DNA from: Stieleria neptunia
Lineage (GTDB): Bacteria; Planctomycetota; Planctomycetia; Pirellulales; Pirellulaceae
Assembly: GCF_007754155.1 (NCBI RefSeq)
Contig: NZ_CP037423.1
Coordinates: forward strand, 7,312,938 to 7,376,937
Reading direction: 5' to 3'
DNA: 64,000 nucleotides
The position numbers and the translations under genes were made by a program. The notes below the pieces were generated by a model, which saw nothing but the letters and a program-made list of their open reading frames with translations, was not told where the DNA came from and searched no databases. Shown here piece after piece: positions 23,506 through 53,724 of the stretch; the stretch's first letter is position 1, and each line of letters starts with the position of its first letter.

Positions 23506-26500
23506 ATGGGCAAATCTCGCAAAAGATCATCGCTTAAGGTTTCTGAAAACAGAATCAAACGTCGTACTTATCTTGCGGAACAACTTGAGACGAGAATTGC
23601 CGCCGGTAGTGTTATTCCCCTTGCTGAACCGGCTTTGGGAAACGCGATCGAAGCATTGATGTTGAGTGAATCGAATTCCGGTTTGTCAACACAGCAAGCG
23701 TCTCAATCCCAGTTAAACAGATCTTCGAAAGATGATGCTGCTACTGATGCGCATGATCCGAACGCCTCCGTTAACCCCGATGGCTCAGTCCCTAAGATTG
23801 GCGACAAAACGCAGTCTACCCTGCGAACGATTCAATCGGCGGAGCCTAATCAGATCGTACTCCATGGCGATGGAAATCAACCTCCGGTCGAGCTGTTTTC
23901 TCAATCGTCCTTCGGTGGCTATCTGCCGGAAGGTGAGTTCGGCCAGGGCACGATCGATGCTTCTAAGGAACTTCGCGGCGGTTCATCTGTAAGTTCTTCC
24001 GGTTCCGCCGATGCTTCGATCGCGAACCCTCCTCGCTCGGTCGGAAACAACGTGGTTGACCGTGCAGGTACCGAACTAGGCGTTTCAGGAAGAAACGCAT
24101 CCAAAACACCAGCAGGCGGTTCCTCCGGTAATGCAGCTCAGACCGACGGCGATTCAGTGGCCGCAACCGCTGGTTCGAATGCAACGAGTTCCGCGACAGT
24201 ATCGCAGGGCGGCCAAAGTCAAGCTGGTGGCACCAATTCGGGGACAGCGTCGATCGGTCAATCGCGTGAGTCCGCCGACGATTCAATCAATGATGGTTCC
24301 GCAGACGCCGCGAGTCCGAGAACAGGAGTTGCTGGAAACGTTAACCGCGACACGGTGCTCTCAACAAATCAACAATCCGTTGTGATCACGAGTGCCGAAC
24401 AGGTTCGGGCTGGGGACTATGAACGAATTGTTGTTGAAGGGCATTTGCGCAGCGCATCGGGAAAATCGCTAGCTTCCGCTCCCGAAGGCAACGTGTCGGT
24501 CGATTTCTATGTGGTCAAGCGGTCTGAGCTTCAGATCGCTACTGCGAGAAGGCTAACGGATCCCGTTCTGCGAAACACGCCGAGGCATGTGCATGTCGGT
24601 TCGACGACGGCAATAGACGGTGACTTTCGGGCCGTGATCGACGCGTCTATCTTGCCTGGTGATTCGGTCTTTGCAGTTGCGAGTCGTTCCAACGAGACGC
24701 CTTACCGAAGTGCGCCCGTTAGTGTGGGCTTCGGCGACGACTTGGACCGGGACGGAGTCAATGATGCCGTCGAATTGAACGGGCCTCGGAACGGTGATGC
24801 CAACGGCGATGGACGACTGGACCGACTTCAAGCCGGAGTTGCAACGGTACCGTCTTCTCAAAACGGTGAGTTTGTCACGTTTGACGCCCATGGTGCGCCT
24901 CTACGAAACGTCCGCGCATTGTCGTCGTTTGATGCGAACCGAGGTGACATATCGCTTCCGTTCGGAATGTTTGATTTTGAGGTTCTTGTCCGACCGGGCG
25001 GGGCGGCGACGGTTGACATCATTCTGCCGCAATCGGCTAGCCCCAACGCGTATTACAAACAAGATGCAATCGGCGGAACACTCGCACCGTTTCGTTTCGA
25101 CGGCCAAACGGGAGCTGTCGTCAATGGCAATGTCATCACTGTTTATCTACAGGATGGCGGGCGGGGAGACGCTGACGGACAGGTCAACGGGGTCATCGTT
25201 GACCCGGGAGCAATGGTTGACATCGGGGGGATCATCACGCTCGCCGGTACCTCGGCCCAAAACGTTGGCGACTGGAACATCGAACAGTTCGGCGGAAGTA
25301 ATCTCGCCTCCGGATACGTTTCGGAAGAAACGGTAGATGAGACGCAATACCTAAGGATTCACGAGGGAGATTCGTTCCACGTTTCGATGTCTCGAACGAT
25401 CACGATCCCGGAGGATCCGTCAGAGTTTCGGTTCGAATACGAAGCTGACTTCAATACGACGGACGCAGACGGAATCAACGACGCTTTCGAAGTGGCAATT
25501 TTGAATGATCAGGGATATCCCGTCATCGAACCGTTTCGTTCCAGTCGTGACTCTTTTTTCAATCACACCGAGGGGGAGTCTCCCGCTTTTTCTACTGGAG
25601 TGACCGATCAGGTCGGATTTGTGACCGCTGACATTTCCTCTCTTCCGGCCGGCGCCGAGTACACGCTGACGCTTCGAATGATCAACAATGATGGCGACAG
25701 CGGATCGAACGTTCGTTTAAGGGCAAGCCACAACCCGAGGTCAAACGACGATAGCGTTAACCTTCTAGAAGACTCAACGGACTCCAGTTTTGATGTTTTG
25801 GCGAATGACACCAGCTTTTTGGCCGGGGACGATGCGCTTTCGATCACTGCAGTAGACATCACGGGAACGATCGGCCAGGTGAGCATCCAAGACGGACTGC
25901 TTCTTCGATACGTTCCGGTCAGCGATTTCAACGGAATCGATTCAGCCGTCTACACCGTTTACGACTCCGTCGCGGAAAGCTCCAGTACCGCGACCGTCGT
26001 ATTCAATGTCACACCGGTCAATGATGCCCCCACGATCACGGGATTCTCGATTGATGTCGATGAAGACCAAACGTTGACGCTAAGCATTCCCGGTGTTCTG
26101 GCCTATGCCGATGACATTGACGACCCGCCAGACAATCTCGCTCTTTCTGTCATCGCTCCTACAGAACATGGAGATTTGACTTGGTCAACAGACGGTTCAA
26201 TCACGTATACCCCGTCGGAGAACTTTAACGGCTCAGACTCTTTCATCATGCAAGTCAACGACGGCAAGGATTCCAGCAGTCTAATCACCGTTCCCATTAC
26301 GATCCAAAGCGTCAATGACATTGGCGGAGAGCCGGACCTGTACAACACGAACGAAGATGTCGTGTTAGATGTCCCGATCCCTGGTGTGCTTGCCAACGAC
26401 GTCGACGTTGAAAATGACCTTTTGATCGCGATCCCCCTCAGCGCCGGCACAAAAGGCAACGCGGTTCTGAATTCGGACGGTTCATTTATCTACACGCCCA

Positions 26501-29500
26501 ATCCGAACGATTACGGAATTGATACGTTCACTTATCAAGTGTTCGACGGGCACGACTACAGTGCCCCCATCACGGCGACCGTGAACATTGCGCAGGTCAA
26601 CGATCCGCCAGTTGCTGAAGAGGATTCCTACACGACCGACGAAGAGACGCCGCTGGCGATTGCTGCACCCGGAATCCTCTTTAACGATGATGATCCCGAA
26701 GATCACCCGCTGACATCGGTTCATGTCGCAGGTGGAACGAACGGGACGATCACGGTTGAGGATGATGGCTCATTCGTCTACACACCTGCAGACGACTTCT
26801 TCGGCGAGGACACGTTTTGGTACTATCCGACCGACGGAAACGCCAGTGGATCGGCGACCTTGGTGACAATTGATGTGGTCAACATTAATGATGCTCCGCA
26901 GGCGATTGACAATGCCTACAACGTCGCCGAAGACCATTTGCTTACTGTCGACGAAGCAGCGGGGCTTGTCAGCGACGACTTGGATGTCGACTTCGACGTG
27001 CTATCAGTTACCGAAATCGTAGATAATCCCGACTACGGAACGATCGAGAGCTGGGATCCAAACGGTTTCTTCCAGTATCGACCGGACCCCGACTTTAATG
27101 GCAACGACAGTTTTAGCTACGAAACGCAAGATCCAGATGGTGAAACTGCAACGGCAACAGTCTGGATCTCTGTCGATCCGATCAACGACGCGCCGGTGGC
27201 AGCAGCTGACGCCAATTTGTCGGCCACCGAAGACCAAGCGCTGGTTTTCGCCGGTTCGACTTTGCTTGCCAATGACTTGGACGTTGACGGGGACGACCTG
27301 ACGTTCAACCTGCTCGGCTTTTCCGAGGGTGGGGTGGTCGCCGACATCGGCGGAGGAGACTACCAATTCACACCGGATGCCGATTTTGACGGCGAATTCA
27401 CGTTCTGGTACGAAGCCAACGACGGATTCGCCCAGAGTGAGCCTGTCACCGTCACAATCAATGTTCATTCCGTTAATGATGCGCCCATTGCGACCGATGA
27501 CGGTCCTTATTTGTACGTTGCGGATGCAGCCAATTTGCTGGTTGTCTCTGCTGCCGCAGGACTGCTCCTGAATGATGACGATGTTGATGGAGACCTGATG
27601 GAAACCACGCTCGCTTCTCAAGGGAATCACGGTGTCGCCACCATCAATCCTGATGGTTCGTTCTCATATCAGCCGGCTGATCCGAATTGGTTTGGCACAG
27701 ACACGTTCACCTATGTGGCTAATGACTCTGTATTGGATAGTACCCCGGCAAGCGTCACGGTGATTGTCGATCATGCGCCGGTCGCCAATGACGATACCTT
27801 CTCGGTTGATGAAGACACACAGCTAATTCGAAACGAAGCCGACGGCGTGCTCTCCAATGACTACGACGTCGACGGAACAGATCTGGTTATCGCCGAAGTC
27901 ATTTCACCGCCCGCCAATGCGTCGCAATTTTCATTCGAATCCGATGGAGGATTCTCGTTCACGGGAGATCAGAATTTTTCCGGTACGACAACCTTCACCT
28001 ATCGATTGTGGGATGGCCATGTTTATTCGTCACCCGCGGTGGCAACCATCACCGTTGCCGGCGTCAATGACAGCCCGTTATCGGAAGACGACATCTACCA
28101 TTTCACTTTTGATGGCACGAATCCGCTGATCGTTGGGCCTAGCGAAGGGCTTTTGAGTAACGATTCTGATGTCGAAGAAGATCTACTCCACTCAACGTTG
28201 GAATCAACCAATGCAGGGACGGTGACAGTTCAGCCGGACGGTTCGTTTAGGTACACCCCGTCGAGTGGTTTTTCCGGGGCAGACACTTTTACGTACCGTG
28301 CCAATGATGCCGCCCCAGGGACGTTGGCGACGGTTACGATTCACGTCAACAATGTTCCGGTCGCAGTGGACGACTCCAGCGATCCGTTGCTAAACACTTC
28401 CGAAGACTCGACACTCGACATTGCGCTTTCCACCGTGCTGGCAAACGACACGGATCAGGACAATGATATTCTTACCGCCGAGCTGGTCACCGATGCGACA
28501 GATGGAACCGTGACTCGAGGCCCCGGTGACTCCTTTGTTTACCTCCCGAACGAGCACCATACGGGCGCGGACTCTTTCACATACCGTGTCAATGATGGAA
28601 ACGCATTTTCTGACGAGGCGACTGTCCACATCAATGTCGCTCCCGTCAATGATGCTCCCGAAGCAGATGATGATTCATACTCCGTGACCGAAGACGCAGT
28701 CTTAACGGTGGCCAACCCCGGCCTGCTTGGCAATGATTTCGATGTTGATGGAGACCTCCTGTCAGCCGAAATCGTCAGCGGCCCAAGCCACGGAACGATC
28801 ACAGACTGGGTAAGCGACGGCGGTTTTACCTACGACTCCGATCCGAACTTTGAAGGCACTGACACATTCGTCTATCGTACCTTTGATGGAAACCTGTACT
28901 CCAACAGCGTCACCGTGTCGATCAACGTCCAGGCGGAAAACGATGCGCCAACCGCCACTGCCGATAACTATTCCACGCAAGAAGATGTTCCACTCTACGT
29001 CGCCGCGGATGGAGTCTTGGATAACGATGACGATCCTGATGGCCCTACGTTAAGTGCGAATCTGGTGAGCTCGACGACCAACGGGACGTTGCAGTTGGAG
29101 ACGGACGGTTCCTTCACCTACACGCCGAACCCAGATTTCAACGGCATCGACAGTTTTGTCTACCAGGCGACCGACGGAGAATTCACCACGAGCGATACAT
29201 CAGTGGTAATTACCGTGACGCCCGCCAATGACGCCCCAACGGTAGAGAACTTTATCTACAACATTCTTGAAGACGAGCCGGTCAGCCAGGCAGCGGACGG
29301 TGTGCTGACTGGCGCGGCAGACCTTGATTCACCTTCGTTCACTGCCGTCCTGATGTCTCAGCCGACTTACCAAGGCACGGTTTACGGTAGCGTAACACTG
29401 GAAATTGACGGCAGTTTTGAGTACACGCCCGCACAGGACTTCCATGGGACGGTCAGTTTCACTTTCGCGGCGACAGACGGACAAGATGTGTCCACCCCGG

Positions 29501-31209
29501 GCACCGTCACGATAAATCACGCACCGGTGAACGATTACCCGCAAGCAAACGATTACGCGATGGACTTCGTTTTTCGAAAGAATGTGGTCGAGACACTCGC
29601 CCTCGGATCCCCTGGATTGATCGAGCTGGTCTCTGACGTGGACGGCGATCAGATCACGACGCGACTTGCTGCCGGAGGTGAAGCGAGCAACGGCGTGGCA
29701 ACGGTAGATGCGAACGGATTGTTTACGTACTCGCCGGACCACACCTTCTTTGGCTCGGACAGTTTTCAGTTTGAAGGCGGAGATGGATCGGCGTGGTCCG
29801 ATCCTGCGACCTTTACCATCAACGTTTATCACGCTCCGTTTGCTGTCGGAGACGGACGGTCGACCGACGAAGACGTTCCGTTGACCATTTCCAAGTCAAC
29901 CCTGCTGGCGAATGATATCGATGTCGATGGCGGTACGTTGTCGGTGACGGATGTGACCTTGCCATCGCACGGGTCGTTGGTGGACCAAGGTGATGGAACA
30001 CTGGTTTACACACCCGTTCCGAATTTCAATGGCGCAGATTCGTTCACCTACAGGGCCAGCGATGGCGTCTACCAGAGCGAAATTGTGACGGTCGACATCG
30101 TCGTGACCGCCATCAACGATGCGCCGGCGGTGATCGACGACCCAGACTACGTCTATATCTGGGAGCCCTCCGGAATCCTGACTGTTGGCGACGCTTCCGG
30201 TGTGCTCGCCAACGATTTGGATGCCGACTTTGATGTCTTGTCGACAACCAACGTGTCGGCGGCAACGGAGGGAAACGTCAATGTCGCACCGGATGGATCG
30301 TTCACTTACACGCCCGATAGCGGATTCGCTGGGTTGAGCACGTTTACGTACACCGCCAACGACGGGACGGTAGATTCAGCCGCGGCAGCGACGGCATCGA
30401 TCTACGTCACACATCGCCCCGCCGCGGTCGGGGAATCGTTCAATGTGACGGAAGATCAGGCCTTCTCGCCACTATCCAGTCTGCTCGATAACGACAGCGA
30501 CATCGACGAGGACAGCCTGATCGCCGAGTTGGGAGATGATGTCTCCCACGGAACGTTGACACTGGAAACCAACGGATCGTTTACTTACGCGCCGGAGGAA
30601 GACTACAACGGCCCGGACCATTTCACCTATCGAGCATCTGACGGAGTTGCCCACTCCGATTGGGTGACCGTTGCCCTGACAATTGAAGCAGTTAACGATG
30701 CTCCGGTTGCAAGTCCGGACAGTTACAGTGGTCCAGAGGACGAGCCAGTTATTGTTCCTGCGCTCGGAGTATTGGCTAACGACAATGATCCCGAAGAAAA
30801 CCCACTTGTCGCGGTCCTGCACAGTGCGTCAGATTCACGGCTTCAATTTAATTCCGACGGATCATTCACATTTACTCCCCAAGCGGACTCGAATGATCCC
30901 TTTCAGTTTGAATACTACGCGACCGACGGAGAATGGAGTTCCGAGGTAGTCGTCGTGTCGCTCTCGATCGATGCCGTCAACGACTCACCTGTGGCGTCCT
31001 CAGACCAGTATTCCGTAGACGAAGACCAGGTTCTGTCAGTCGGTGGAATCGGGGTCCTGGAAGGCGACCATGACGTCGACCATGACCTTGCGTCGCTTAC
31101 TGTGACCCGACTTTCCTCTCCCACCAACGGATCGCTTACGTGGCATGGCGATGGGACCTTTGACTACACACCGAATCAGCACTTCTCTGGGACCGATTCA
31201 TTCACTTAG
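23506..31209 (+). CDS. Giant gene, segment 1: export motif and cadherin-like repeats
   Basis: ATG 23506 has a GGAG at 23496-23499; an in-frame TTG at 23482 is less likely. The segment encodes 2,567 genuine residues. After the basic leader and low-complexity linker come a Ca-binding and choice-of-anchor-like stretch, and then 19 repeats of about 90-110 residues with the pattern ..NEDTxL..GVLANDxDxxGD..., ...G.FTYTPxxxFxGxDSFTY...DG...VTITVxxVNDAP. These rigid, Ca-dependent repeats are typical of stalks that reach from the cell surface. The TAG that ends the frame (31207-31209) is formed at the IS junction using the first base of the element. Expressed alone it would be an adhesin stalk without toxin. 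Confidence 0.85.
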   Translation: MGKSRKRSSLKVSENRIKRRTYLAEQLETRIAAGSVIPLAEPALGNAIEALMLSESNSGLSTQQASQSQLNRSSKDDAATDAHDPNASVNPDGSVPKIGDKTQSTLRTIQSAEPNQIVLHGDGNQPPVELFSQSSFGGYLPEGEFGQGTIDASKELRGGSSVSSSGSADASIANPPRSVGNNVVDRAGTELGVSGRNASKTPAGGSSGNAAQTDGDSVAATAGSNATSSATVSQGGQSQAGGTNSGTASIGQSRESADDSINDGSADAASPRTGVAGNVNRDTVLSTNQQSVVITSAEQVRAGDYERIVVEGHLRSASGKSLASAPEGNVSVDFYVVKRSELQIATARRLTDPVLRNTPRHVHVGSTTAIDGDFRAVIDASILPGDSVFAVASRSNETPYRSAPVSVGFGDDLDRDGVNDAVELNGPRNGDANGDGRLDRLQAGVATVPSSQNGEFVTFDAHGAPLRNVRALSSFDANRGDISLPFGMFDFEVLVRPGGAATVDIILPQSASPNAYYKQDAIGGTLAPFRFDGQTGAVVNGNVITVYLQDGGRGDADGQVNGVIVDPGAMVDIGGIITLAGTSAQNVGDWNIEQFGGSNLASGYVSEETVDETQYLRIHEGDSFHVSMSRTITIPEDPSEFRFEYEADFNTTDADGINDAFEVAILNDQGYPVIEPFRSSRDSFFNHTEGESPAFSTGVTDQVGFVTADISSLPAGAEYTLTLRMINNDGDSGSNVRLRASHNPRSNDDSVNLLEDSTDSSFDVLANDTSFLAGDDALSITAVDITGTIGQVSIQDGLLLRYVPVSDFNGIDSAVYTVYDSVAESSSTATVVFNVTPVNDAPTITGFSIDVDEDQTLTLSIPGVLAYADDIDDPPDNLALSVIAPTEHGDLTWSTDGSITYTPSENFNGSDSFIMQVNDGKDSSSLITVPITIQSVNDIGGEPDLYNTNEDVVLDVPIPGVLANDVDVENDLLIAIPLSAGTKGNAVLNSDGSFIYTPNPNDYGIDTFTYQVFDGHDYSAPITATVNIAQVNDPPVAEEDSYTTDEETPLAIAAPGILFNDDDPEDHPLTSVHVAGGTNGTITVEDDGSFVYTPADDFFGEDTFWYYPTDGNASGSATLVTIDVVNINDAPQAIDNAYNVAEDHLLTVDEAAGLVSDDLDVDFDVLSVTEIVDNPDYGTIESWDPNGFFQYRPDPDFNGNDSFSYETQDPDGETATATVWISVDPINDAPVAAADANLSATEDQALVFAGSTLLANDLDVDGDDLTFNLLGFSEGGVVADIGGGDYQFTPDADFDGEFTFWYEANDGFAQSEPVTVTINVHSVNDAPIATDDGPYLYVADAANLLVVSAAAGLLLNDDDVDGDLMETTLASQGNHGVATINPDGSFSYQPADPNWFGTDTFTYVANDSVLDSTPASVTVIVDHAPVANDDTFSVDEDTQLIRNEADGVLSNDYDVDGTDLVIAEVISPPANASQFSFESDGGFSFTGDQNFSGTTTFTYRLWDGHVYSSPAVATITVAGVNDSPLSEDDIYHFTFDGTNPLIVGPSEGLLSNDSDVEEDLLHSTLESTNAGTVTVQPDGSFRYTPSSGFSGADTFTYRANDAAPGTLATVTIHVNNVPVAVDDSSDPLLNTSEDSTLDIALSTVLANDTDQDNDILTAELVTDATDGTVTRGPGDSFVYLPNEHHTGADSFTYRVNDGNAFSDEATVHINVAPVNDAPEADDDSYSVTEDAVLTVANPGLLGNDFDVDGDLLSAEIVSGPSHGTITDWVSDGGFTYDSDPNFEGTDTFVYRTFDGNLYSNSVTVSINVQAENDAPTATADNYSTQEDVPLYVAADGVLDNDDDPDGPTLSANLVSSTTNGTLQLETDGSFTYTPNPDFNGIDSFVYQATDGEFTTSDTSVVITVTPANDAPTVENFIYNILEDEPVSQAADGVLTGAADLDSPSFTAVLMSQPTYQGTVYGSVTLEIDGSFEYTPAQDFHGTVSFTFAATDGQDVSTPGTVTINHAPVNDYPQANDYAMDFVFRKNVVETLALGSPGLIELVSDVDGDQITTRLAAGGEASNGVATVDANGLFTYSPDHTFFGSDSFQFEGGDGSAWSDPATFTINVYHAPFAVGDGRSTDEDVPLTISKSTLLANDIDVDGGTLSVTDVTLPSHGSLVDQGDGTLVYTPVPNFNGADSFTYRASDGVYQSEIVTVDIVVTAINDAPAVIDDPDYVYIWEPSGILTVGDASGVLANDLDADFDVLSTTNVSAATEGNVNVAPDGSFTYTPDSGFAGLSTFTYTANDGTVDSAAAATASIYVTHRPAAVGESFNVTEDQAFSPLSSLLDNDSDIDEDSLIAELGDDVSHGTLTLETNGSFTYAPEEDYNGPDHFTYRASDGVAHSDWVTVALTIEAVNDAPVASPDSYSGPEDEPVIVPALGVLANDNDPEENPLVAVLHSASDSRLQFNSDGSFTFTPQADSNDPFQFEYYATDGEWSSEVVVVSLSIDAVNDSPVASSDQYSVDEDQVLSVGGIGVLEGDHDVDHDLASLTVTRLSSPTNGSLTWHGDGTFDYTPNQHFSGTDSFT
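31206..31208. repeat. Left 3-bp target duplication of ISAzo13-type element
   Basis: TTA immediately left of the element; the same TTA follows its right end at 32535-32537. Removing the element and one TTA rejoins TTCACTTACCGT, that is F-T-Y-R. Confidence 0.8.
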
Positions 31210-32534
31210 GACCGCCGGAACAATTAGTGTCGGTTAATTGGCGAGAATCGATAGTTCCATCTCGGTATTTGTTCGTCAAAAACTGTACGCAGAGCTGCTT
31301 TCATTGTTGCGGTCGCGTTCTCACCCGTCTCGTACAACCCTCGCAAGACGTTGACCGTAGTGCGAAGGCCGGTCCGAGTCGATGTGTTCCGCATCAACTT
31401 GACAACTGTTTCCAACTTATCGAAAAGCATCCCGGAGCAAGCACGTCCAAGATGCGGAAAAAAACGGCGTTCAATCGGATTGTATTTTGAACAGTAGCTT
31501 GGATAGTGGGCTACCCGAATTTCGATGCCGATCGTGTCGACCAACTTTTGAAGGTAGTGCTTGAAGATGTATTTTGAAGCTGAGTTGCTACCGCCGCAAT
31601 CGCACAATAGCAAAATGGAATTGGTATCCGGATAACAACGTTTCCCTATCCGGTTCCAGTACCATTTGAGGCTATCGGTCGCGAAGCGACTCGTCTCGTG
31701 AGAGAGTCCAATGTTGACGTGCCCAGCATTTCGTCCGATGTCGTAGATTCCGTGAGGAATCACAACGCCATCAGCCCAACTCGGAAAGTCGTGGTCGAAC
31801 GCTTCAATGGGCTCTGTGGTGCGAATGCGACCGGCCCGGTAAAGACGGCCCAGGAATTCTTTGCTTTTTGTGTCGATCGAAAAGACCGGATTGCCGGCAG
31901 CCTGATAGCTCTCCACATGTCCTGCGATGAGATCAAACTGCTGCTCGCGATCCGCTGACAAGCCACCGGAAATAGTTTTGATCATTTTTCGAAAACCGAT
32001 CTTCAAGCTATTCAGCCAAGCGGAGACCGTCTTGTCGCTCACAGGGGTGCCGGCCTCGGCCGCCTTCTCAGCCATTTCAGTGGAGGCCAGGTTTGTGTAA
32101 ACCACGTCGGGCTCATCAGGATCGCCTCCAACACGAACGCTCAATAGTTCGTTCAGATTGTCTTCGAGGTCGGGATCGGTTTCGATCTTTTTTTTCGTCC
32201 AGCACCTGGCCGCCGTATCCTACCTTTCGCCGGATCATTGGAGAGTTGATCGAGCTCAGCGATACCTCGTTCGATGGTGCGAGTCGAGCAGCCCAGTAAT
32301 TGACTGATGTACGGTACACCTCCTCGCCCGAGACGCTGTGCCTCGACAGCCGCGAACCGACGGCGATCCTTTTCGGACAAGGTTGAATAAAAATCGACTG
32401 CTCGCTTGGCAGCCAGATCGTCAAGCTGATTTTCGAATACAAACGCCATCCTTGGCACCCTCGCTGGTGGATTGAGACGCGGAAAGTCTACCCCATCCAG
32501 CGAAAACCCGCGACACTAATTGTTCCGGCGGTCC
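31209..32534 (-). mobile_element. ISAzo13-type insertion sequence, complete
   Basis: 1,326 bp bounded by perfect 24-bp terminal inverted repeats (31209-31232 and 32511-32534, outer bases GGACCGCCGGAACAATTAG) and flanked by TTA direct repeats. It carries a transposase in two overlapping minus-strand frames. Ends, target copies and gene are intact, so the insertion looks recent and the element may still move. Confidence 0.92.
31224..32449 (-). CDS. ISAzo13-family transposase, two frames joined by likely -1 frameshift
   Basis: The upstream frame (ATG 32449, or GTG 32458, to 32153) gives a helix-turn-helix N-terminus (YSTLSEKDRRRFAAVEAQRLG, LLGCSTRTIERGIAEL, RRPGAGRKK). The downstream frame (to 31224) gives the DDE catalytic part: FSIDTKSKEFLG, VVIPHGIYDIGRNAG, LLLCDCGGSNSA, YCSKYNPIERRFFPHL. 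They overlap at a run of eight A (minus-strand reading CGA AAA AAA AGA, near 32190-32199). Slipping back one base yields KKKIETDPDLEDNLNELLSVRVGG in the second frame, giving a normal full-length enzyme of roughly 405 residues. A sequencing or mutational indel in the homopolymer is the alternative explanation. Confidence 0.88.
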
Positions 32535-32537
32535 TTA
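32535..32537. repeat. Right 3-bp target duplication of ISAzo13-type element
   Basis: The second TTA of the insertion; the giant gene's frame resumes here. Confidence 0.8.
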
Positions 32538-35500
32538 CCGTCTAAACGACGGTCAAGCCGATTCCCAAATCGCTACCGTCACGATTGATATTGTGGAGGT
32601 CAATGACGCGCCGACGGTCAGCGACGATCTCTTAGGCGGTCTCGAAGACACGCCCCTGGTGATCACGCCGGCGCAACTGGTTGGCAACGATTTTGATCAA
32701 GAAGGACAGACTTTGTCCGCTTCTGTCTACGAGGATGCCCCATCCGGATTCACGACCGAACATGGATCGATTGTCGACAACTTTGATGGAACCTTGACCT
32801 TCACACCGGACACCGACTTCGTCGGTGATGCTTCTTTCCACTACCTGGCATTCGATGGCAATTTGAACAGTATTCCGGCACAAGTGGTGGTCAGCTTCGC
32901 TGCCGTCAATGACGCGCCCACCGCGGTAGATGATCCGACGACGGGGGCGACTTACGTGACCTTGGAAAACACCTCGTTGACGGTCGATTCGGCTTCGGGA
33001 GTTTTGGGCAACGACTACGATATCGACAGCGGCACGCTGACCGCCCATTTGATCAACTCAAACTCGGGCACCGTTGATCTTCAAAGCGACGGCGGATTCA
33101 CATACACGCCCAGTTCGTATTTCTTTGGCGCGGACACCTTCGTCTATCAGGCGTCCGATGGCGAAGCGTTTGGAAATCACGCAACGGTCACGATCACGGT
33201 ACAGAACATCAACGATGCCCCGATCGCGGGCAATGACTTCTATAGCGTCCCCGAAGACGGCACGATCACACTTTCAGGAATCGACGGAATCCTTTCCAAC
33301 GATATCGAACGCGACAATGACCCATTAACGGTTGAAGAATTCAATCCGATGGGCGCCTACCTGGGGATTGGGGCTGATGGAGCGTTCAGCTACTCGCCTC
33401 CTGTCGACTTTCATGGGATCAAAACGTTCTACTACCGCGTCAACGATGGAGCGGTTGACAGCAATGATGCGACGATCCAAATCACAGTCACTCCGGTCAA
33501 TGACGCGCCGATAGCATTTGGCGACACGTACAAGATCGCGGCCGGTAACACGCTAACGGTTGATGGGCTAGGCGTGCGTGACAACGATGACGATCCCGAC
33601 GGCGATGATTTCACCGTCCAGGTAATCTCCGGGCCGCGAGGAAGCCTATCCTTTGATCCCGACGGGACCTTCTCGTATTCGCCGCCAGCCGGGTTTAGCG
33701 GGCTGGACACGTTTACCTATCAAGCCAGCGACGGAACACTCGACAGCAATGTCGCGACGGTCGAAATCAGTGTCGTCGCGACTAAATTCTACGTCGTGGA
33801 TTCCACGCACGGCGACGTATTTCGGTACGGAGCCGATTCAACTTGGACAGACAGCGAATCTCTCGACGGTAGCAATACAACTCCGATCGGGGCGACCAGC
33901 AATTCTGCAGGCGACCGCCTTTGGGTTCTCCAAGACGGCGGTTCAACCACCCAAGTATTTGCCTATGACCGTGAAGGACTAGCGTTGGGCAACTGGACGG
34001 CGATGGGTATCAGCGGAGCCTCCGGCATCGGTACCGATGAGATCGATATTTGGGTCGTTGAATCGACATCCAACGCCGTCCATCGATTCAGTCAGTCGGC
34101 TTCGATTACCACCGGCGATCTTGCACCGGGATCTTCGTTCTTACTCGATGGAGCAAATCAGAGCCCAACCGGCCTCACCACCGACGGGATGACGATTTGG
34201 GTGACGGATGATGTTGCCGACAAGGTCTTCGTTTATGACACCAATGGGACGCTTCTCGGGCAATGGGAATTGGACCCCGTTAATGCAGACGCCAGCGGAA
34301 TTACCCTAAATCCTGGCGGTGGAACTGATCTTTGGGTCGTCGACCGCAGTGATTTGTCCGTATTCCGATATGAAGACGGACAAACAACTTTGTCCGGGAC
34401 ACAATCGGCCACGGGATCCGCTCCACTTGCTCCCGGCAACGTTTCACCGGAAGGAATTGCAGATCCGCCCACCAACACGCCCCCGGTGGCCTACGATGAC
34501 ACGCGATCAGCGATACACGATGAGCTATTCTATCGATGGGACGATGATGGGGATTGGCGAAGTCTATATTTGCTCGGCCACGACAGTGATTGGCAGGATA
34601 CTCTCACCTATGAAATAACCGCGCAGCCCGCTAATGGTGTTGCGGCCGTCATTCCGAGAAGCCGCTGGAGCTATGATCCAGCGGCGGGTTTTGTGGGAAC
34701 TGATTCGTTCCAATATAGAGCGTTTGACGGCACCGATTACAGTAACACGGCAACCATCACGATCTATGTGACAAACCAGGCGCCGACCGGAAATGCAGAG
34801 ACTTGGTCCGTGTCTCGAAATGGAATCCTTGACCACTATTTGAACAATGACGACGAACCGGAACCACTTCGGCTCGTTGCGACGGACCCCGACGGCGACT
34901 CACTCGCGATCGCCATTGACTCCCCACCAAGCAATGGAGATTTGACTCTGAATGGAGATATCTGGACCTACACACCTGACCAAGATTTCGCGGGTCAAGA
35001 TTTTTTCGTTTACTCACTGTTCGACGGAGCCGCGACAACGCTCATTACGATGACGATCGACGTTGTTAACAACGCACCGGTAGCAAGTAGCCAGACTCAA
35101 TCGACGCCACATGGCATCTTGCTGGACGAATGGATAGATGGAGATAACGATCCGCATCCATTGAAGCTGACAGCGACGGATGCAGACGGAGATCCGATCA
35201 CGTTTTCAATCCATGCTGATCCTCAATATGGCGTCGTGACGCTCGATGGAGACGAGTGGACCTACTTGCCCGATCTCGGTTACCTGGGCATTGACACATT
35301 TGAATTCGTCGCCAGTGACGGAACTGCTTCCAGCAGCCCCGTCACTGTCAGCATTAATGTGACCAACCAAAAGCCTCGTGTGTATACAAGGTACTACTCT
35401 GTCGTCCACGGCAACCTACTTAGCCAATACCAAGACGCCGATGACTACCAATGGTACCCCCTGGAGTTCATTTCATCTGACAGCGATGGGCACGCACTTG

Positions 35501-36972
35501 AGTTCGAAGTGACAATTCCTCCGCAGCACGGAACCGTTGTTATCAATGGAAACCAGTGGGCCTATCAGGCTGACTTTGGGTACGAAGGGCCAGACCCGTG
35601 GGAATTTGTCGCGTTTGACGGTGCGGAATACAGTGATCCAGCCACGATTCACGTCAACGTCACAAACGCCGCCCCGATAAGCAAGAACGCCGGGTACAAC
35701 GTCCATCACGGGCAGCTCATCACAGAGTCATACACCACGAATGACATTTACGAGCCGCTGACACTTTACGGATACGACGCAAACGGTAACTCGCTCACCT
35801 ATCGGATCACTCAACCACCGCAACACGGTGTATTGACGCTTGATGGTGCCCAGTTTACCTATCTGGCAGATCTTGATTTTGTCGGAACAGATACGTTTCA
35901 GTACGACGTATTTGACGGCGTTGAGTTCAGCACGGTTTCTTCGATCAACATGCATGTGCAGAATCAGCCGCCGGTTGCAAACAATGAGTCTTATTCGGTT
36001 GATCGCAACAATGTGCTTCATGTTTCTGCATCCGACGGAGTGCTGAACAATGACACGCAGGGCGATCAAGATCAGCTTATCGTCACACTGGAATCTGCCC
36101 CGGCCAATGGATCGATTGAATTCTTTGATGACGGGGCATTTAACTACCATCACGACGGTCAATCGTTTCTGTCTGATTCCTTCACTTACCGGATTTTTGA
36201 CGGTGCGGCGTACTCAATTGGGACCGTGAATATCACGATCAACCCGAACACGGCGCCCATCGCCGCACCCGACAAGTATTTCTTAGCTGCTGGTCAGGAG
36301 TTTTCTGCCGGTGGGAGCTCGGCATCAACGTCGACTTGGGGAGTTCTGCGAAACGATTTTGATGCCGGTGGTGATGCCCTAGCCGCATCAGTTCTTACCA
36401 CAACTACGAACGGTCAACTGTCACTCGCGACAGACGGAACGTTCGTGTACACGCCCGCAAACGGTTTTATTGGACCGGACCAGTTTACGTATACCGTCTC
36501 GGACGGCTACGACACCGACATAGGAACGGTCACCTTGGTTGTCGTCGATGAAGCTCTCGTGATCGACGAACTGCAAGGTGTGGCTGGAAACCTTGGCACC
36601 GAGTTCTGGCTTACGTTTCCCCATAACAGCCGATTGGAGATCGACAATGTTGATCCCTACATTTCGATCACAATAACCGGTAAGCAAGGGACAAGCGGGC
36701 AAGTTCAAATCCCCGGACTGGACTGGACAGATGAGTTCGTACTGGACGAAACCGGGGTCTCTACCGTCGAACTGCCTTCAACGGCGCAGTTTAGCGGTCC
36801 GCTGAGCGGGTTTAGCAACAACGCGATCAGGGTTTCCGCCGACGCTCCTGTTGCGGTCTACGGAATGAACTTCTCGGAGGCGCAAACTGATGGATATTTA
36901 GGCTTCCCCGTGGAAGCACTCGGCAATACCTATAACGTGCTTACCTACCCAGTCGGGTGCATTCCCATTTAG
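32535..36972 (+). CDS. Giant gene, segment 2: repeats, propeller, IgGFc-binding-like N-part
   Basis: Genuine coding runs 32535-36954, residues 2567-4040 of the reconstruction; the last codons to TAG 36972 come from the second IS. Read alone, the first usable start is GTG 32593. It continues four cadherin-like repeats, then a six-bladed propeller-like part at about 33780-34470 (FYVVDSTHGDVFRYG, IDIWVVESTSNAVHRF, MTIWVTDDVADKVFVYD, TDLWVVDRSDLSVFRYE). Next are seven variant repeats with SVHHG/SVSRNGIL starts, then VAGNLGTEFWLTFPHNSR, the opening of an IgGFc-binding-type domain (also DAPVAVYGMNFSEAQTDGYLGFPVEALG). Without an export leader this piece should be non-functional. Confidence 0.85.
36947..36954. 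repeat. Left 8-bp target duplication of ISKra4-like element
   Basis: ACCCAGTC, repeated at 38729-38736 beyond the other end of the element. Confidence 0.92.
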
Positions 36973-38728: not shown

Positions 38729-38736
38729 ACCCAGTC
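38729..38736. repeat. Right 8-bp target duplication of ISKra4-like element
   Basis: ACCCAGTC, matching 36947-36954. Confidence 0.92.
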
Positions 38737-41700: not shown

Positions 41701-44700
41701 GCAATCAGCGCTCGCACTTCAAACAATCAAAAACCGGAGATCACCTCGATTGCTCCGGATGTCGCGCCACGATTGGGGCTGTACGAATATGACGTCGTGG
41801 CCAACGATCCGGATGGTGATTCTTTGACGTTCGAACTGCTTCAGTCTCCCGAGGAGATGACGATCGATTCCGAAACCGGAGCGATCCGCTGGACCGCGCC
41901 GATTTCGGCGCCGGATCTTGTTTATGTGACCATCCGAGTAGAGGATGAGCATGGTGGTTTCGACATTCAGCCCTACGACATTGCGATCAATGGCAAGTAC
42001 AACCAACCTCCCGTCATCGAGTCGCCGCCCGTCACTTCGGCAGTGGTCGGCCAGCCCTACATCTATCAGGTAATCGCACAGGACCCAAATCCGGAAGATA
42101 CGCTCACCTATCTGGTGAACTCGCCGTACATGAACGAGATCATCGTCGACTACGAAACGGGTCTCTTGGAGTGGACTCCGACCAAGGCAGAATCGGTACC
42201 GATTTCGATTTGGGTTCGCGACGACGGGATGGGGGCCGATTTCCAAGACTACGTGATCAATGTTTCGGTAAACCCCGACAACACGCCGCCAGAAATTCGC
42301 TCCGAAATCTCCGGACGAGTCGCGATCGGCCGCGAATATCGACACGTGTTGGACGTGTTTGATGCCGAAGGCGACGCGTTGACCTACGGCCTGACCTCAA
42401 CCACGACGGGTTTGTCGGTTTCGCCCGACGGTGTGATCTCCTGGACACCTGCGGCCGACCAAGGCGGTGACCACACTTTCACCGTCACAGTCTCCGACGG
42501 CCATCCCAACGGAACGGTCGACAAGACCTATACGCTGACGGCGATCAACGGATCGGCTAACACGCCGCCGCGGATCCAATCGGCGCACTTTATTGACGCG
42601 GTCGTTGGCGAATTTTATGAACGACACGTGATTGCAATTGACGACGACGGTGACACATTGGCTTATGTGATCGATGGCCAACCGGGCGGCATGCAGATTC
42701 ACCCGGCCACGGGCCGTGCCCACTGGACACCGCTCGCATCACAGGTCGGGACATATACGTTTGACGTGATGGTCGTCGACGCGCTCGGGGCTTCGGATCT
42801 CGAAACGGTGACGATGAATGTCATCAACGTCAATCGACCACCCACTGTGGCCCCAATCCGCGAGGTAACGACACCCGTCTTGGTTCCCTACCGATATGCG
42901 GTCAGCGCCAGCGATCCCGACGGACACCAGCTCACCTTCTCGCTTGGACCCGGTACAACAGCCGACGAACTTGGCGATCTGAACATCGATCCGGACACCG
43001 GAGTGATTGATTGGCTCCCTTTGATGGAGGGCCGGCGCGAGATCGATCTTCGAGTCACGGACGAACTCGGCCTGGAAATCAGGATGCAGTTTGATGTCGA
43101 ATCGCTGCCCGAAGATCACGGTGAGGAACTCTTCAATACGCCTCCCGAATTCACGAGCACACCGCCAAAGCGGATTAAGATCGAAGAACTGTGGTCCTAT
43201 CAAGTCGCGGCCGACGACGACGATGGAGACACAATCACCTACTCGATGACCACGGCGCCTCCCGGCGCGACGTTTGATCCGGTGACGCAGATTATGGAAT
43301 GGACTCCAAGCTCCGCCTACATTCAGCAGCTTGTGCCGTTCCGGTTTGAAGCATCCGACGGCAAACAAACCGCCTTTCAGAACGTCTTGATGGGCGTGAC
43401 CGAGTTCGGGAACTTGGTGCCCGTCATCGACCCGATCGGACCACAGACGATCGTTATTGATTCAACAATGCAATTCCGAGCTGGGGCCAGCGACGGAAAT
43501 GGTGACGTTCTGTACTACTCGCTGGACGACGATTCCATTGATCTCGGGATCGTGGTTGATCACATCGGCCGCATCGCATGGACCCCCACCATCGATCATG
43601 TGGACGATTCGCCGTATTCGGTCACCTTGTCAGTCACCGACACAATCGCAACGTCGACTGAAACCTTTACGATCGACGTCATCACCGACGACACGCCTCC
43701 GACGATCGCGTTGTACACCGATCGCGATCAAGCGCTGATCGATCAAACGATCGCAGTCCAAATTGATGCCGTTGACAATCAAGCCATCGCCGAGACGACA
43801 CTGGTCATCGAATCGTTGGACGACGGCACGACCGTTCAACAGTTGAACATTCCTGTTCCCGTTGACCACCTCGGACGTGCCTCGATCGACACGTCCGTGG
43901 CCTTGACCGGAGTGGTCACGTTGTTGGCGACGACGACCGACACGTCCGGAAACTCCGTTGAGGCACGAAAGGATGTCACGATCCTGAACTTGCAAGACGA
44001 CGGTTACCCCACCGTTCAGCTGACGCAGCCTTCCGGTTCCCTGTCAACTCCGACCGATGTGATCGGTACGGTGACCGACGATACCGGGCTGGTTGACGTT
44101 CTGGTCGAACTCTATCCATCCAACGGCAGCGCAGCGATCACGCTCAGCCACTCGACCGGCGATGTCAACAACCTGGTTCCCGAGATTGTTGCCGACGCGG
44201 TAGCCCGAATCGACACGACCAATCTGGCGAACGATTCCTATACGCTTGTCGTCTCCGCGACCGACGTTGCCAACAATACTTCGACGGCGGATGTCCGAAT
44301 CGAAGTCGACTCGGATCTCAAACTCGGGAACCTAACGATCGCGGTTACGGATCTGACGGTGCCGTTCTTGTCCTCTCCGATCCCGATCATCAGGAGTTAC
44401 GATAGCCTCGGAAACGGCAATCGGGGCTCGGACAAATGGGCAAACGACGAATCGCTTGGGCCGGGATGGCGACTCGGACTTCCCGGCGCGGGTTTGGAAA
44501 TTTTCCACGCCGACACTTCGTTTAGCACGTTCGACGACAGAATCCCATTGCGCTATGGAGACAAGGCCGTTTTCACACACGTTGATGGCACGACAGAAAG
44601 TTGGACTTTCCAGCCGGAACCTGCCAACGCATTGTCGTCATCGCCGCCGATGTCCCACGTCAAATGGGTACCCGATCCGGGGACAACCAGCGCGTTGCTC

Positions 44701-47700
44701 GTACCAGACACTCCCATCTATTACGTTCAGGGGGAATATCTGATCTTCACGCGCCATGGCGAAGCAAGCTATCAAACGTTTAGCCGAGAAACCGAATTCG
44801 TTCAAGTGAGGACCCGAAATGGCACCGTCTATCACCTCAATCCCGATAGCGGAGAAGCGATCTCGGTCGAAGGAACCGATGGAAGTGTTGTCACGATGAG
44901 CGACGACGGGTTCATTGCACAAAACGGTGCAAGTGTCCTGATCAACCGCGACCCCAGTGGTCGCATTGCCGAAATCGTTGACCCGCTCGGGAATTCAATC
45001 AACTACACCTATGACGCCCGTGGACGCCTGGAATCCTTTACGGACCGATCGGGTCGCGTGGAGCACTATGAGTACCATGGCGACACAGAAAAACTGGCCG
45101 GCGTGTTTGATGAAAACGGAAATCGTCTGACAGAATACGAGTTCGATGACGAAGGCGGCCGTCTATCCGTCATCATCGATGCCGAGGGGCGGCGAATTGA
45201 AACTCGCACCGATGAGGAGGCGAAGACCGAAACAATCATTGATGCGTTCGGCAACACGACGATGCACGAATACAACTGGGGCGGATTCCCAGTTCGTACG
45301 GTCGACGCACTCGGTGGCGAAACGATTCGCGACTTCCGTGGTGATGGGGTACTGCTCTCTGAAATAGACCCGCTCGGACGGGGAACGCATTACGAATACG
45401 ATGCGATAGGGAGAAAAACCAGCGAAACCGACCCGCTGGGCAACACGTCCTACTGGACGTACTTTGCCGATGGCAGTGTCCGCACGCACACCAATCCCCT
45501 CGGCCAAACGACCGTCACGACCATGGCGACACGAGAGCTCGGCGGCGTTCCCTATATGCCCTCGCTGCTCGGCAAGCAGATATTGGAGACCCGCACGACG
45601 ATTGATCCCAGCGGGGATGCTGTTACGCTCGAACGAGAGTATCAACAGGGTTACAACGGCCTACAGGAATTCTACCTCACGGCCGCAACCGGTTTTGAAA
45701 CCTACACACGAAGCATTCGCATCGAAGGAGAGGACGAATTCGGAGTATCCAACTTTGTCACTGTCAACTCGACGTACGAACCGATTGCTGACCCTGCATT
45801 TCCGTTAGGAAGGTTGCTAACGCAAACCACTCAGAACGCATTCGGTGAAACGGGCCGGGAAGAAGTCTTTGGCAGGACGACGGTCTATCAACGAGATCCG
45901 GAGAGTCGCGTGACCAACGTTTCCACATTCACAGGGACGACAACTACCGAATACGACGTGTTCGGACGGGTTGTCGCGACAACCGATCATCTGGGGCGTC
46001 GTAGCGAGACCGAATATGATCTCGCAGGCAATGTGCTCGCAGAACTCGTACCCGACTTTACTCCGCTTGATTCGACTGACAACGTTCGATCGTCCAATGT
46101 CTACGACATCGCCGGTCGGCTTTACTCGGACATTGACGTGTACGGTCGCACGACGATCTACGAATACGACGAGCTCGGCCGGATCGAATTTACCGTGCTT
46201 CCCGACAACACGCCCGCGGATGATACGGACAATCCACGACTCGAAAGCCGCTACGATGCCGCCGGCCAATTGACCGCTAGCATCGATCAGTACGGCCGGG
46301 AAACCACCTACACCTACGACCCGGCAGGCCGACAAATCGAATCGGCCTCCCCAAGCGGCGTGGTTCGGCGCACCGTTTACGATGCCGCCGGCCGGCAAAT
46401 CGCCACCAACGTGCAGCAACCCGGTGCGTCGATCGCGACCGGATCGATGCAGTATTACGACGAATCCGGCCGCACCACGCGCACGGAACAGTACGCCGAT
46501 CTGGACATCAACCTTTCGACGGATACCAACGGATTCTCGACGACCGCTGTCAACACGGCGAGTCCTGTGAATTTGATCTCATGGACCGAGTCGGTCTATG
46601 TCAACGGTCTGCAGACCGAGTTTGTTTCTTCCAGTGGTGACCAAACCGACTACGACTACAACGATCGCGGACAACTGGTCGGTCAAACCGATTCCAGCGG
46701 TCTGGGATCGGTGATCACCTACAACTTTGCCGGCAATCAAATCCAGACAATCACCAACACGGTCGATGAGTTTGGAGATGACGTCCAACTGGTTCAGCAA
46801 ACGGTGTATGACGATTTCGGCCGCGAAATCTATTCGTCGGACTCTGCCCCCATTTCCACGCCAGTCGCCGAAATCACGGGCACCGCGACCGTCTACGACA
46901 GCTACGGCCGCGTCGAATCGACCAGCCGTCTGATCGGGCTGGATATCGATATCGACGCGGTAGACGGCTTCGAAGCTTCCAGTCTGGTCGATGCGGGATC
47001 AGTGATCTCGACCAGCACCTTTACCTTTGACGACCTCGGTCGATCGAGTGAAACGGTCGACTCCTTCGGTCAGCGCAGTCAAACGGTCTACGATCAATAT
47101 GGGAATGCCGTTGAATCACGCACCGAATACTTGCCATCGGGCGCGTCGGAAGCCGTTTGGCAGGTTATTCGAACAATCTACGATTCCGAAGGACGTGTGG
47201 AATACCAAACCGACGCCTTCCTGTTGCCGATCGGAACGGCACTTGGGGACAACGGCGCGTCCACTCCCTCGGCCCCGGCAACCAAGTATGTCTATGACGA
47301 CTTCGGGCGACAGATCGCTGTGGAACGACATCGATCTGTTGAGCTTCAACCCTCTGCCGGCCTTTCCGGAGACGTTCATCCGGGTTTTGTCGTCACCGAT
47401 CCCGGCGAACTCCTCTCGGCCTCCGAAACGCTTTACGATTCCCAAGGCCGAGTCGCGCGAACAATCACCGGCCGGGTTCCGACAACCGCGCTCTCCGCCG
47501 ACGAACTCGCAGTGCTCACGTTGCCAGCTGAATTTGATTTGCATCTGGGTAACCCAGATTCCTACGCAGCGATCGGACTGACGCCAGGCACGATTCGGGA
47601 CACTCTGTACGATTCCGCGGGGCGTTTGTCGGCTTCGCTCGAACACCCTCTGGCTGCGGCGGTGGTCGGACTCGATGCGCGCTTCGGCACGGACACGCTC

Positions 47701-50700
47701 GTCCGGCTCAGAACAGAGTCTCAATACGACGAACTTGGTCGCCTCCAACTGCAAAGATCGGGGCTTGTCCAGGTGATCACCGACACGGGAACTCTCACGG
47801 CGGTCGAAGACGATCAGTCGGTCGATAGGGTTTCCCACCGTGATGTCCAAGGGAATCTTGTCCGGACCGACTATGTGACCGGCGGGACAATCCACTATGA
47901 CAGCCTTACCGATACGACCTCGCGTTCCTCGGGAACGGTGGATTCATTTGTCACCAGTCGTTTTGACGATCAAAACCGATTGGTCGCCGAAATGCAGCAG
48001 ACTTCTGGGGCAACGACTGCAACTTGGTCGGATGTTGAAGAATCGTACGTTGACGGATCAGGAAATCTGATTCCGACGAAGCTCTATCGATACAACGACC
48101 GGGACCAGCTGACATCCGTTGAACTGCCTGCGGTTCCCGATCCCCTGTCGGCCGATCAACTCGTCAGACCGAAATACCAATACGCCTACGACGAGCTTGG
48201 TCAACAGGCAACGATCATCGATCCGCTCCTTCGCGAGACACGGTTCACCTACGATTCCGGCGGACAACAGGTGTCACGAACCTTGCCGATCGGCTTTGGA
48301 ACAGACGGTGCGATTGCCGACCAGATCGAATTGGATTCCTGGATTCAGGATCTCGGATCAGGTTCCGCGGCCTTTACCGAGACGATGACTTATGACGACC
48401 ATGGTCGTCAGGCCACGCATGTCTCGTTTGAAGGTGTGGTGACGGAAAACGTCTACGAACCGGCGACGGGACGACTCAGCGAGCGGCGGTATTTTGAGTC
48501 CGTCGCCGCCTACGATAACGGCATCGGCACGGCCGACGAGACTTGGCGATACGGCTACGACGGCCTGGGACACCGAACTCAGGCAACCAAGCTGGATTCG
48601 GCGGGCAACGTCCTGCGTTCGGAAACGACGGCCTACGACGATCTCGGCCGCGTGTTCGCTGAAGTCTCCGAAGAAGGCGTTTTGCACTATCGGTACGATC
48701 CGTTGGGCCGCATGACGGCGACGGAAATTCACCCCGTCGGCACGGCAGTTTCGGCACTTCCGGGCGCAACACCTGAGCGAAGCACGGCGTATACCTACGA
48801 TGCCCTGGGCCGTCTGGACACGGTCACCGAGTCCGCAAACTCCGTCGAGCAACACGAAACCGACTACGCCTATGACCTCCAAGGTAGAGTCGCCGACCAC
48901 TCCGTGGTCGATGCGTCAACTGGCAACCTCATCACGACGGATTACGACTACGACGCCCTCGGCCGCCTGGACACCCAAACGGACACCGACCAATCGGGCA
49001 ACACGCTGGCCGAATACGACTACGACGTCCGCGCCGACGGCAAACGAACCAAACTCACCGAGCGTTTCGCCGTCGACCACGATAACGATCCGCAAACGGC
49101 TCTGGTCCTCTCTGATCCAACCACTTACGACTGGACCTACGACGACGTTGGCAGACTCACCGACGAAGTCATCGACCACTGGGACGACACGCTCGACCAG
49201 ACCGAGAGTTTCACTTACGACCTCACCGGCAACCGCGTCAGCTTGGAACGTGACCACGGAAACGACGGCGTCGACCAGGCCATCACCTACAACTTCGACG
49301 CCAATGACCGACTCATTGATGAAGTCCTCGATGACTTGGTCGATGACAACAATGACACCACGACGACGTACACCTACGATCACACGCAGAACACGTCCAA
49401 GACGGTCGCCTCCACCTCGACACTCGTCACTCGCAGCTCGCAACTCTTCTCCTACAACCTGCAAGGCCGCATGAACGCGGTCGTCAACGAAGGTTACGAC
49501 GCGGCGGGTGTGTTGAACTCCCGCGAACGTGCCAGTTACGAGTACGACAGCAAGTCCTACCGCGTCTCGCTCACTTCCGAAAATGGAACAACACTGTCTG
49601 CCGACCTCGCTGCTGAGGTCTGGAGCCTGACGTCTGAAGCCTCCTTCTTGGCCGACCACCACAACCACGCCGATTACACACAGACGATTCGCGAAACGAC
49701 CTACGACGACCAGGGCGCGGTGGTCAAGCAGGTCGACTTCACGTTCGGCAGTGATGAAATCGCTCAGACCGTCACCGAGGGCGGCACAACTGAGACGCAT
49801 GTGTTCGGTCACGACGGCCATGGCAGCGTTCGCGTGCTGTACGCCCTCGCTGGCACCGCTGAGTCAATCGCCCAAGTCTTCACCTTCGCCGCATATGGCG
49901 AGATGCTCGCCGTGCACGGCGCTGACGGCGTCTCAGTGCCCGTGTTGCAGCGATTGAGCAGCCTTGGCTACTCCGGCGAGCACTTCGATGCCAAAGCTCA
50001 GCAGCAGTACCTCAGGGCGCGGTTCTACGACCCGGTGAGTGGAAGGTTCAATCGGCTGGACCCGTTCTCGGGTTGGCTGGAAGACCCGCAGTCGCTGCAC
50101 AAGTACGCCTATGTGCATGGGGATCCGATACAGGGACTTGATCCGACTGGAGAGTTTTTCGCTGCCGCAATCGGTAGTGTGGTTTCGACCTTAGGAAATT
50201 TGATCAGAAACAACAAAACGGCTGCAGTTGGAGTCGTTGCTATTGATCGGACCGCAACACTAGCGGACGCGGTGACCGCAGCGTCGCTGCTTGCTATTGG
50301 ATCGTCAGTCCCTTTTCCACTATTGGCTGGACTACTTGTGTCTTTGATTCCTGGTGCGGGAATTGCGAAAATTCTGGGAAAGAGCTTCGACGTGCTCGGA
50401 ACTACCGGGAGGTTAGTGATCGGCTCGGGAGGCGATCTCGCAACGGTTCTGGCTCAAGGTGGAAAAGGAAGACTAGATGACGCAGGAGAACTACTTTCTA
50501 CCTATATTCAAAAACTTGATGACTACGTTCCAGATGAAAAACTTGTGCAGCTTGGTGGGGAACTCGGCACAGTAAAAACGGCGCAGAAGCTGGGACTTGA
50601 ACCGTTGGATGATTTTATTGTTCGATATCGTGGGATCGATGGCCTCTACAAGAACGGCGACAAGTTTGTGATTGCAGAAGCCAAGGGTTTCAGTAAGGGA

Positions 50701-50958
50701 TCCTCTCCGACACTCGGCATCACCAAGCATGGGGAGCAATTGAGCCAACAGTGGATTCAACGTCAAGCCACGAAGCTAATCAACAAAGGTGGTGAATTCC
50801 GAAAGTGGGGACTGGAATTGCAAGACGCCATTGACGAGCGCAGAGTTCAAGTGTTGCTGACAAAAACGCCTGTTGATAAAGGAGCAAAAACCGTGGGAGA
50901 GACAACATTCGAGCTGAGAAACTATTCGCAGTTGGGCGCAATTTCATACAATCCTTAA
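38729..50958 (+). CDS. Giant gene, segment 3: IgGFc-like end, Ig domains, RHS shell, toxin tip
   Basis: Residues 4041-8113 of the reconstruction; the open frame also runs back into the IS (to 38653), but those codons are not native. It starts with the rest of the IgGFc-binding-like domain (IAVFSGNECANVPTTFAACDHL). Then come an invasin-like Ig (GGILVQFEVEGV), several putative-Ig/cadherin-like domains, an SdrD-B-like repeat (ISGIVFRDLDGDGVKSVTEA), and the RHS entry (FLSSPIPIIRSYDSLG, about 5900). Many YD repeats follow (YDxxGRxxxxxD), then the RHS core near 7800-7850 (RARFYDPVSGRFNRLDPF, YAYVHGDPIQGLDPTGEFF). The last 265 residues are unrelated to the shell and hold the toxin tip. This piece lacks an export signal. 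Confidence 0.87.
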
Positions 50959-53710: not shown

Positions 53711-53724
53711 AAGAATCGGCAAAA

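Follow-up and report, generated by a model that had tools for sequence, protein, structure and literature searches.

A giant RHS gene of Stieleria neptunia interrupted by two insertion sequences and followed by a putative immunity gene

Gene layout at the locus

The window, by which we mean the whole stretch of 64,000 nucleotides analysed here, covers positions 7312938-7376937 of the Stieleria neptunia genome, which consists of one contig (NZ_CP037423.1) of 10,975,817 bp. It contains three long open frames, pieces A, B and C, that are separated by two insertion sequences, IS1 and IS2, and followed by a small open reading frame (ORF) of 263 amino acids (Table 1). The three pieces are one gene for a giant RHS-repeat protein, interrupted by the two insertion sequences. 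Internal stops are absent from A (2567 codons), B (1473 codons) and C (4073 codons and a stop), and the summed length of the pieces is 8113 residues.

The initial annotation, made from the letters of the DNA, had described a stalk of about 30 cadherin-like repeats, a propeller, an IgGFc-binding-like domain, an RHS shell and a nuclease-like tip behind a planctomycete export motif. Most of this architecture is recovered by profile searches. Pfam Big_9 marks 19 stretches in A and 11 in B, and NCBIfam adds tand_rpt_95 (994 bits) and choice_anch_U in A. The Pfam family IgGFc_binding is found and is cut by IS2. In C, RHS_repeat (PF05593) reaches 136.7 bits at a cut-off of 22 and the Rhs-associated core (TIGR03696) 52.9 bits at a cut-off of 32.5, the latter at residues 3719-3805. 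No profile matched a propeller or the planctomycete export motif, and neither the Pfam matches of piece A nor a search of its first 1000 residues included a PAAR- or VgrG-type N-terminus. Several features go beyond what the initial annotation had listed: the putative immunity gene, a low-GC module formed by tip and immunity gene, a displaced fragment of the shell, a 90-bp direct repeat and the polymorphism of the locus. The GC content is 50.2% in the tip and 48.1% in the immunity gene, compared with 57.6% in the shell, 57.4-61.0% in six flanking genes and 53.7-54.4% in the stalk pieces.

Table 1 Features of the giant gene and its surroundings, in window positions
Feature	Position	Strand	Remarks
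90-bp direct repeat, left copy	23129..23218	+	upstream of the giant gene
Piece A, 5' part	23506..31206	+	N-terminus and 19 cadherin-like/Big_9 repeats; open frame, profile matches
IS1	31209..32534	-	ISAzo13 family; 1326 bp, 25-nt terminal repeats
IS1 target duplication	31206-31208 and 32535-32537		3 bp, two copies
Piece B	32536..36954	+	11 further Big_9 repeats; IgGFc_binding-like start from ~36595
IS2	36955..38728	+	ISKra4-like; 1774 bp, 24-nt terminal repeats
IS2 target duplication	36947-36954 and 38729-38736		8 bp, two copies
Piece C	38737..50958	+	remaining IgGFc_binding, He_PIG Ig repeats, RHS shell, tip, stop
IgGFc_binding	38758..39552	+	profile positions 24-297; first part in B, cut by IS2
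RHS/YD-repeat shell	44700..50151	+	ends in Rhs-associated core and DPTG motif; left limit approximate
C-terminal tip	50152..50955	+	hydrophobic stretch, then predicted PD-(D/E)xK nuclease (~50533-50955)
Putative immunity gene	50973..51764	+	263 aa, 14 bp past the stop of C
Displaced RHS-shell fragment	52707..53132	+	93.7% identity over 427 columns to 48811-49237
90-bp direct repeat, right copy	53722..53811	+	98.9%

The stretch from the immunity gene to the next conserved gene contains mixed debris (53055-53573 and 52178-52663), some of which looks by eye like transposase fragments; neither interval has a match in PHROGs at E 0.1 or better. Rfam gave no match over 22900-54000.

A single gene interrupted by IS1 and IS2

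Both inserts carry perfect terminal inverted repeats and lie between exact target duplications, and both have nearly identical copies elsewhere in this genome. Thirteen full-length copies of IS1 (0-1 mismatch) and 14 of IS2 (99-100% identity) were counted, window copies included. A flush 3-bp direct repeat is present at 11 of the 12 other IS1 copies, with 2 bp at the remaining one, and 8-9 bp duplications flank 11 of the 13 other IS2 copies, the remaining two having been missed by an exact-word search. The transposase of IS1 matches NF033519 (ISAzo13) with 321.2 bits, above the cut-off of 200, over profile positions 68-387 only; that of IS2 matches NF033572 (ISKra4) with 113.3 bits (E 1.4e-32), below the cut-off of 205. 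The ISAzo13 transposase frame lies at 31224-32219; to complete its start, a frameshift or a frame further upstream may be required.

The reading frame bears the same history. The net inserts of 1329 and 1782 bp are each divisible by three, the starts of A, B and C share a common phase (position mod 3 = 1), and the inserts themselves contain 17 and 18 in-phase stops. Both insertions also fall within recognisable domains, a line of evidence that is independent of the frame. The final Big_9 repeat of A ends at profile position 71 of 89, at IS1. In C the IgGFc_binding match begins at profile position 24 of 297 (22 in the family-wide search); among 18 other IgGFc_binding matches above 100 bits, 14 begin at position 1 or 2 and four at 62-63. 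A single open frame in a related genome, G007 (genomes are given by our own handles), covers both sides of IS2: its residues 1987-2102 align with the end of B and 2117-2303 with the start of C. This frame has 5762 aa and runs off the contig end.

That A, B and C were separate genes with transposons between them is thus most improbable. Each piece does have a long open frame of its own and would be annotated apart, but the disrupted domains, the exact target duplications and the common phase speak against it, and the frame of G007 directly contradicts separate B and C. For the junction of A and B no uninterrupted orthologue was found, so the evidence for this join consists of the duplicated target, the shared phase and the interrupted Big_9 repeat. 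An uninterrupted orthologue, which the initial annotation had suggested seeking, did not turn up gene for gene in 60 genomes searched with the IgGFc piece. We rejected an assembly chimera as unlikely, given the single contig and the exact target duplications. The initial proposal of one split gene therefore stands; its limits for A and C are borne out, while its left limit for B (32535) lies inside the target duplication and B starts at 32536.

Because each insert occurs in 13-14 near-identical copies in the genome, the interruptions look recent, and the giant gene is probably non-functional in this strain. A different fate of piece C was considered, in which IS2 drives it as an orphan RHS toxin that forms an intracellular toxin-antitoxin pair with the immunity gene product. 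The transposase of IS2 reads in the same direction, the open frame of C already begins within IS2 at 38644 and has a TTG at 38653, the immunity gene is intact, and an excerpt of PMC7043789 reports RHS elements acting as toxin-antitoxin modules in Salmonella. Against this, a scan for promoters and terminators at IS2 found none, in particular no sigma-70-like promoter in 36900-38900, although such scans are weak, and C would have kept no export part. We consider a living piece C quite improbable.

The C-terminal tip and the putative immunity gene

In an alignment of six tips, D195 and K210 are invariant, and E208 is present in five and replaced by D in the sixth. The tip thus carries the D...(D/E)xK active-site motif of PD-(D/E)xK nucleases, and we predict that it is a nuclease of this type, in agreement with the nuclease-like tip proposed initially. 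The structural match list for the modelled tip consists mostly of what we take to be restriction-endonuclease-like nucleases.

The 263-aa ORF is regarded as a putative immunity gene on account of its position and its relatives. In G683, which belongs to another family of the same class, an RHS frame of 5544 aa has a tip homologue at its end (35% over 301 aa, E 2e-43), and an ORF of 273 aa, homologous to the window ORF, begins ten bases past the stop of the giant. Further on (G683:C47:34547-35763) an orphan tip fragment is followed by a second immunity paralogue in tandem. The local score between the window ORF and the first G683 ORF is 90, compared with 33.7 +/- 5.3 for shuffled sequences, of which 0 of 1000 reach 90; the second paralogue lies within the shuffles when compared with the window ORF (117/1000) and aligns closely with the first. 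A profile built from these three immunity sequences (A3) matched 4 of 364 genomes, the window's own included, and four further immunity-like loci were found, two in G297 and one each in G381 and G441. At one of the G297 loci, a remnant of the last 37 tip residues (40.5%) stands directly before the immunity homologue. Linkage of tip and immunity ORF is thus shown at the sequence level across the window, G683 and, with a tip remnant, G297. In G524 a tip homologue (33% over 434 aa, shell end included) closes an open frame of 12,114 aa, but the ORF after it does not match the window immunity ORF.

Several results weigh against a nuclease with its cognate immunity protein. The structure model of the tip is weak, and Foldseek alone gave no match for it at E <= 0.001. 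The tip falls in no curated family over threshold: Pfam, searched up to E 10, returned only DUF7676 (E 0.052) and no Tox-REase, with HMMER filters dropping most weak matches, and neither the tip nor the immunity ORF matched PHROGs. The 263-aa ORF likewise has no match in Pfam, NCBIfam (E 0.01) or PADLOC. Three of the four further immunity-like loci lack a tip within 1.5 kb, the matches in G381 and G441 sit within longer frames, and no immunity gene is evident beside the tips of G012 and G002.

Searches for relatives of the two proteins gave few matches. A single-sequence search with the tip matched 2 of 392 genomes and one with the G524 tip 3 of 397, the window's own included in each; a tip-region search among large proteins found 0 of 128 candidates. 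The profile A4 matched 75 of 364 genomes, mostly through the conserved Rhs core end, so that this figure is not a count of tips; the same holds for the scan of the genomes' contigs. A single-sequence search with the 263-aa ORF recovered only itself among 812 candidates and nothing in 146 other genomes. Among sequences of solved structures, the tip profile A1 had no match at E up to 10. The candidates that other queries gave were not accepted: ten weak matches of A4 (E 0.12 or higher), most of which lie at the end of the shell or involve small, unrelated chains, one match of the 263-aa ORF (E 0.32) and a phage nozzle protein for A3 (E 0.029).

Among the closest described systems is the pair Tox-REase-5 and Imm52. 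Its motifs Y, FDG, EAK, Y, Q and W, as given in an excerpt of PMC3482391, resemble Y, (I/F/V)D, (E/D)AK, Q and W of the window tip. In contrast to that pair, however, the window tip has no Tox-REase among its Pfam matches and the linked immunity proteins have no Pfam match. Tip and 263-aa protein together match no curated family searched over threshold and look like a new pair.

Polymorphism of the locus, proposed working and significance

The left neighbour of the giant gene (21282-22922) is found at ~95% identity in 5 of 13 relatives of the same genus; G007 has a copy at 68% on another contig. In G013 the left and right neighbours are ~320 bp apart and the giant is absent. It is also absent at the locus in G001 and G005, where the first right-hand gene is absent or reduced as well. 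G012 and G002 encode an intact giant at the same site (4566 and 4581 aa) that contains IgGFc_binding, He_PIG and RHS. The mutual identity of these giants is 82%, compared with 26-33% to piece C in the listed segments, while their flanking genes are ~84-95% identical to those of the window. The locus is a hotspot among the genomes compared: five relatives share the left neighbour, and of these three have no giant and two have one that is ~30% alike. When the giants of G012 and G002 are compared in blocks of 200 columns, identity is 56-94% along ~4400 columns and drops to 33% and 24% in the last two; this tip variation refers to two relatives at the locus and not to a second copy of the window allele. 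The two copies of the 90-bp repeat that flank the region are the only full ones found in the chromosome, and recombination between them might remove everything that lies in between.

Directly upstream of the giants in these two genomes lies a gene of 1472 and 1475 aa with, by eye, a kinase-like start and a WD-like end (G012:C1:7282538-7286953, G002:C75:17166-21590). In the window such a frame is absent between the left neighbour and piece A.

Giant RHS proteins are predicted repeatedly across the phylum. Of 241 genomes in the family, 22 contain IgGFc_binding, the window's own among them, and 17 of the 18 other matches above 100 bits fall in frames of 2,126-5,840 aa. The initial annotation had called the combination of adhesin and RHS toxin in one chain uncommon, which holds in part: IgGFc_binding, He_PIG and RHS are also combined in open giant frames of G002, G007, G012 and G050 (those of G007 and G050 run off the contig end), and the first 8,000 residues of the 12,114-aa frame of G524 contain 42 Big_9 stretches, in one chain with 17 He_PIG stretches, RHS repeats and the homologous tip. 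Rhs-core ends were also seen in open frames of 13,269 (G441), 10,387 (G215), 9,080 (G297) and 7,756 aa (G494). The window's own genome contains at 6356885-6393838 an uninterrupted frame of 12,318 aa with RHS repeats and dockerin-type matches, of which the last 9,159 residues were scanned and whose end is not an obvious toxin tip.

The RHS core, the variable tips, the low-GC tip and immunity gene, the shell fragment and the linkage in G683 and G297 argue for a polymorphic toxin. RHS repeats and core, a variable tip, an adjacent putative immunity ORF and downstream orphan fragments, by which Rhs polymorphic toxins are recognised, are all present. With a probability of roughly 0.7, we propose that the gene encodes a single-chain, surface-displayed RHS polymorphic toxin that was recently broken by two insertion sequences, with its putative immunity gene intact. 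In an unbroken relative, the N-terminus would export the chain, the cadherin-like repeats would form a long stalk, the IgGFc_binding and He_PIG domains would make an adhesive middle, and the RHS shell would enclose the tip. Released after the DPxG motif, the tip would enter a neighbouring bacterium and cut its nucleic acid as a PD-(D/E)xK nuclease, and the small protein encoded downstream would protect sister cells.

Alternatively, the protein could be a giant adhesin whose RHS part is structural and whose tip is no toxin. Excerpts of PMC7717043 and PMC5177795 describe giant planctomycete genes as encoding adhesion or surface proteins, and the scanned parts of the 12,318-aa frame combine RHS repeats with dockerin-type matches and an end unlike a toxin tip. 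The conserved D..(E/D)xK motif, the linked immunity homologues, the orphan module and the polymorphism of the tip count against this, and we regard it as unlikely. Surface giants of marine bacteria could also face grazers, so that an unbroken relative might target predatory protists or another eukaryote rather than bacteria; as a linked immunity family is expected where siblings are at risk, this seems very improbable.

In excerpts of PMC3150448 and PMC3482391, Rhs and contact-dependent inhibition (CDI) toxins with rhs-CT/rhsI modules share with the window protein the RHS repeats, a core ending in DPxG, a variable tip, a small downstream immunity ORF and orphan modules; PMC3150448 describes rhs genes with unrelated tips, immunity ORFs and orphan modules downstream, as at the window locus. 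The window chain differs in its cadherin-like stalk, which is thousands of residues long, in its IgGFc_binding domain, in the lack of PAAR or VgrG among its matches, and in a tip and immunity protein that fall in no curated family over threshold. The giant planctomycete genes in excerpts of PMC5177795 and PMC7717043 resemble the window gene in size, cadherin-like repeats and proposed surface role, whereas the words "RHS" and "toxin" are absent from PMC5177795 and "RHS" is absent from PMC7717043, in which "toxin" was not searched for.

The teneurins of animals are likewise single surface chains in which an RHS/YD shell is combined with Ig-like parts and a C-terminal tip. One of the weak PDB matches at the shell end is to a teneurin-like chain (E 0.14); the window protein is bacterial, its tip differs, and its export and stalk are not known to be related. 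PADLOC had no match. Searches of the open literature for the combination of giant planctomycete genes and Rhs toxins brought up neither a stalked giant RHS toxin nor this pair of tip and immunity protein; other sources, subscription literature included, may describe them. Giant planctomycete genes and Rhs toxins have each been published, and what looks new is the end formed by tip and immunity gene.

More tentatively, planctomycetes might have a distinct way of killing on contact, with export signal, very long stalk, adhesin, RHS capsule and nuclease warhead united in one giant chain and a new toxin-immunity pair at its core. Whole giants, and not their tips alone, would be exchanged at fixed chromosomal sites, of which the one in the window has a long direct repeat on either side, and strains with an insertion-silenced weapon and a kept immunity gene would live as resistant non-producers; this extended picture is possible rather than probable.

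In conclusion, the locus ties one planctomycete giant, of a class read in the papers cited here mainly as adhesion or surface proteins, to a toxin-immunity module that is linked in other planctomycete families as well. Giant genes have been defined for the genus as longer than 15 kb, according to an excerpt of PMC7717043, and the largest remaining piece of the window gene, at 12.2 kb, falls below this, which suggests that annotation may undercount giants. The tip and its putative immunity protein, outside the curated families searched, form a testable candidate pair, and the locus would be a natural case of a weapon broken and its antidote kept.
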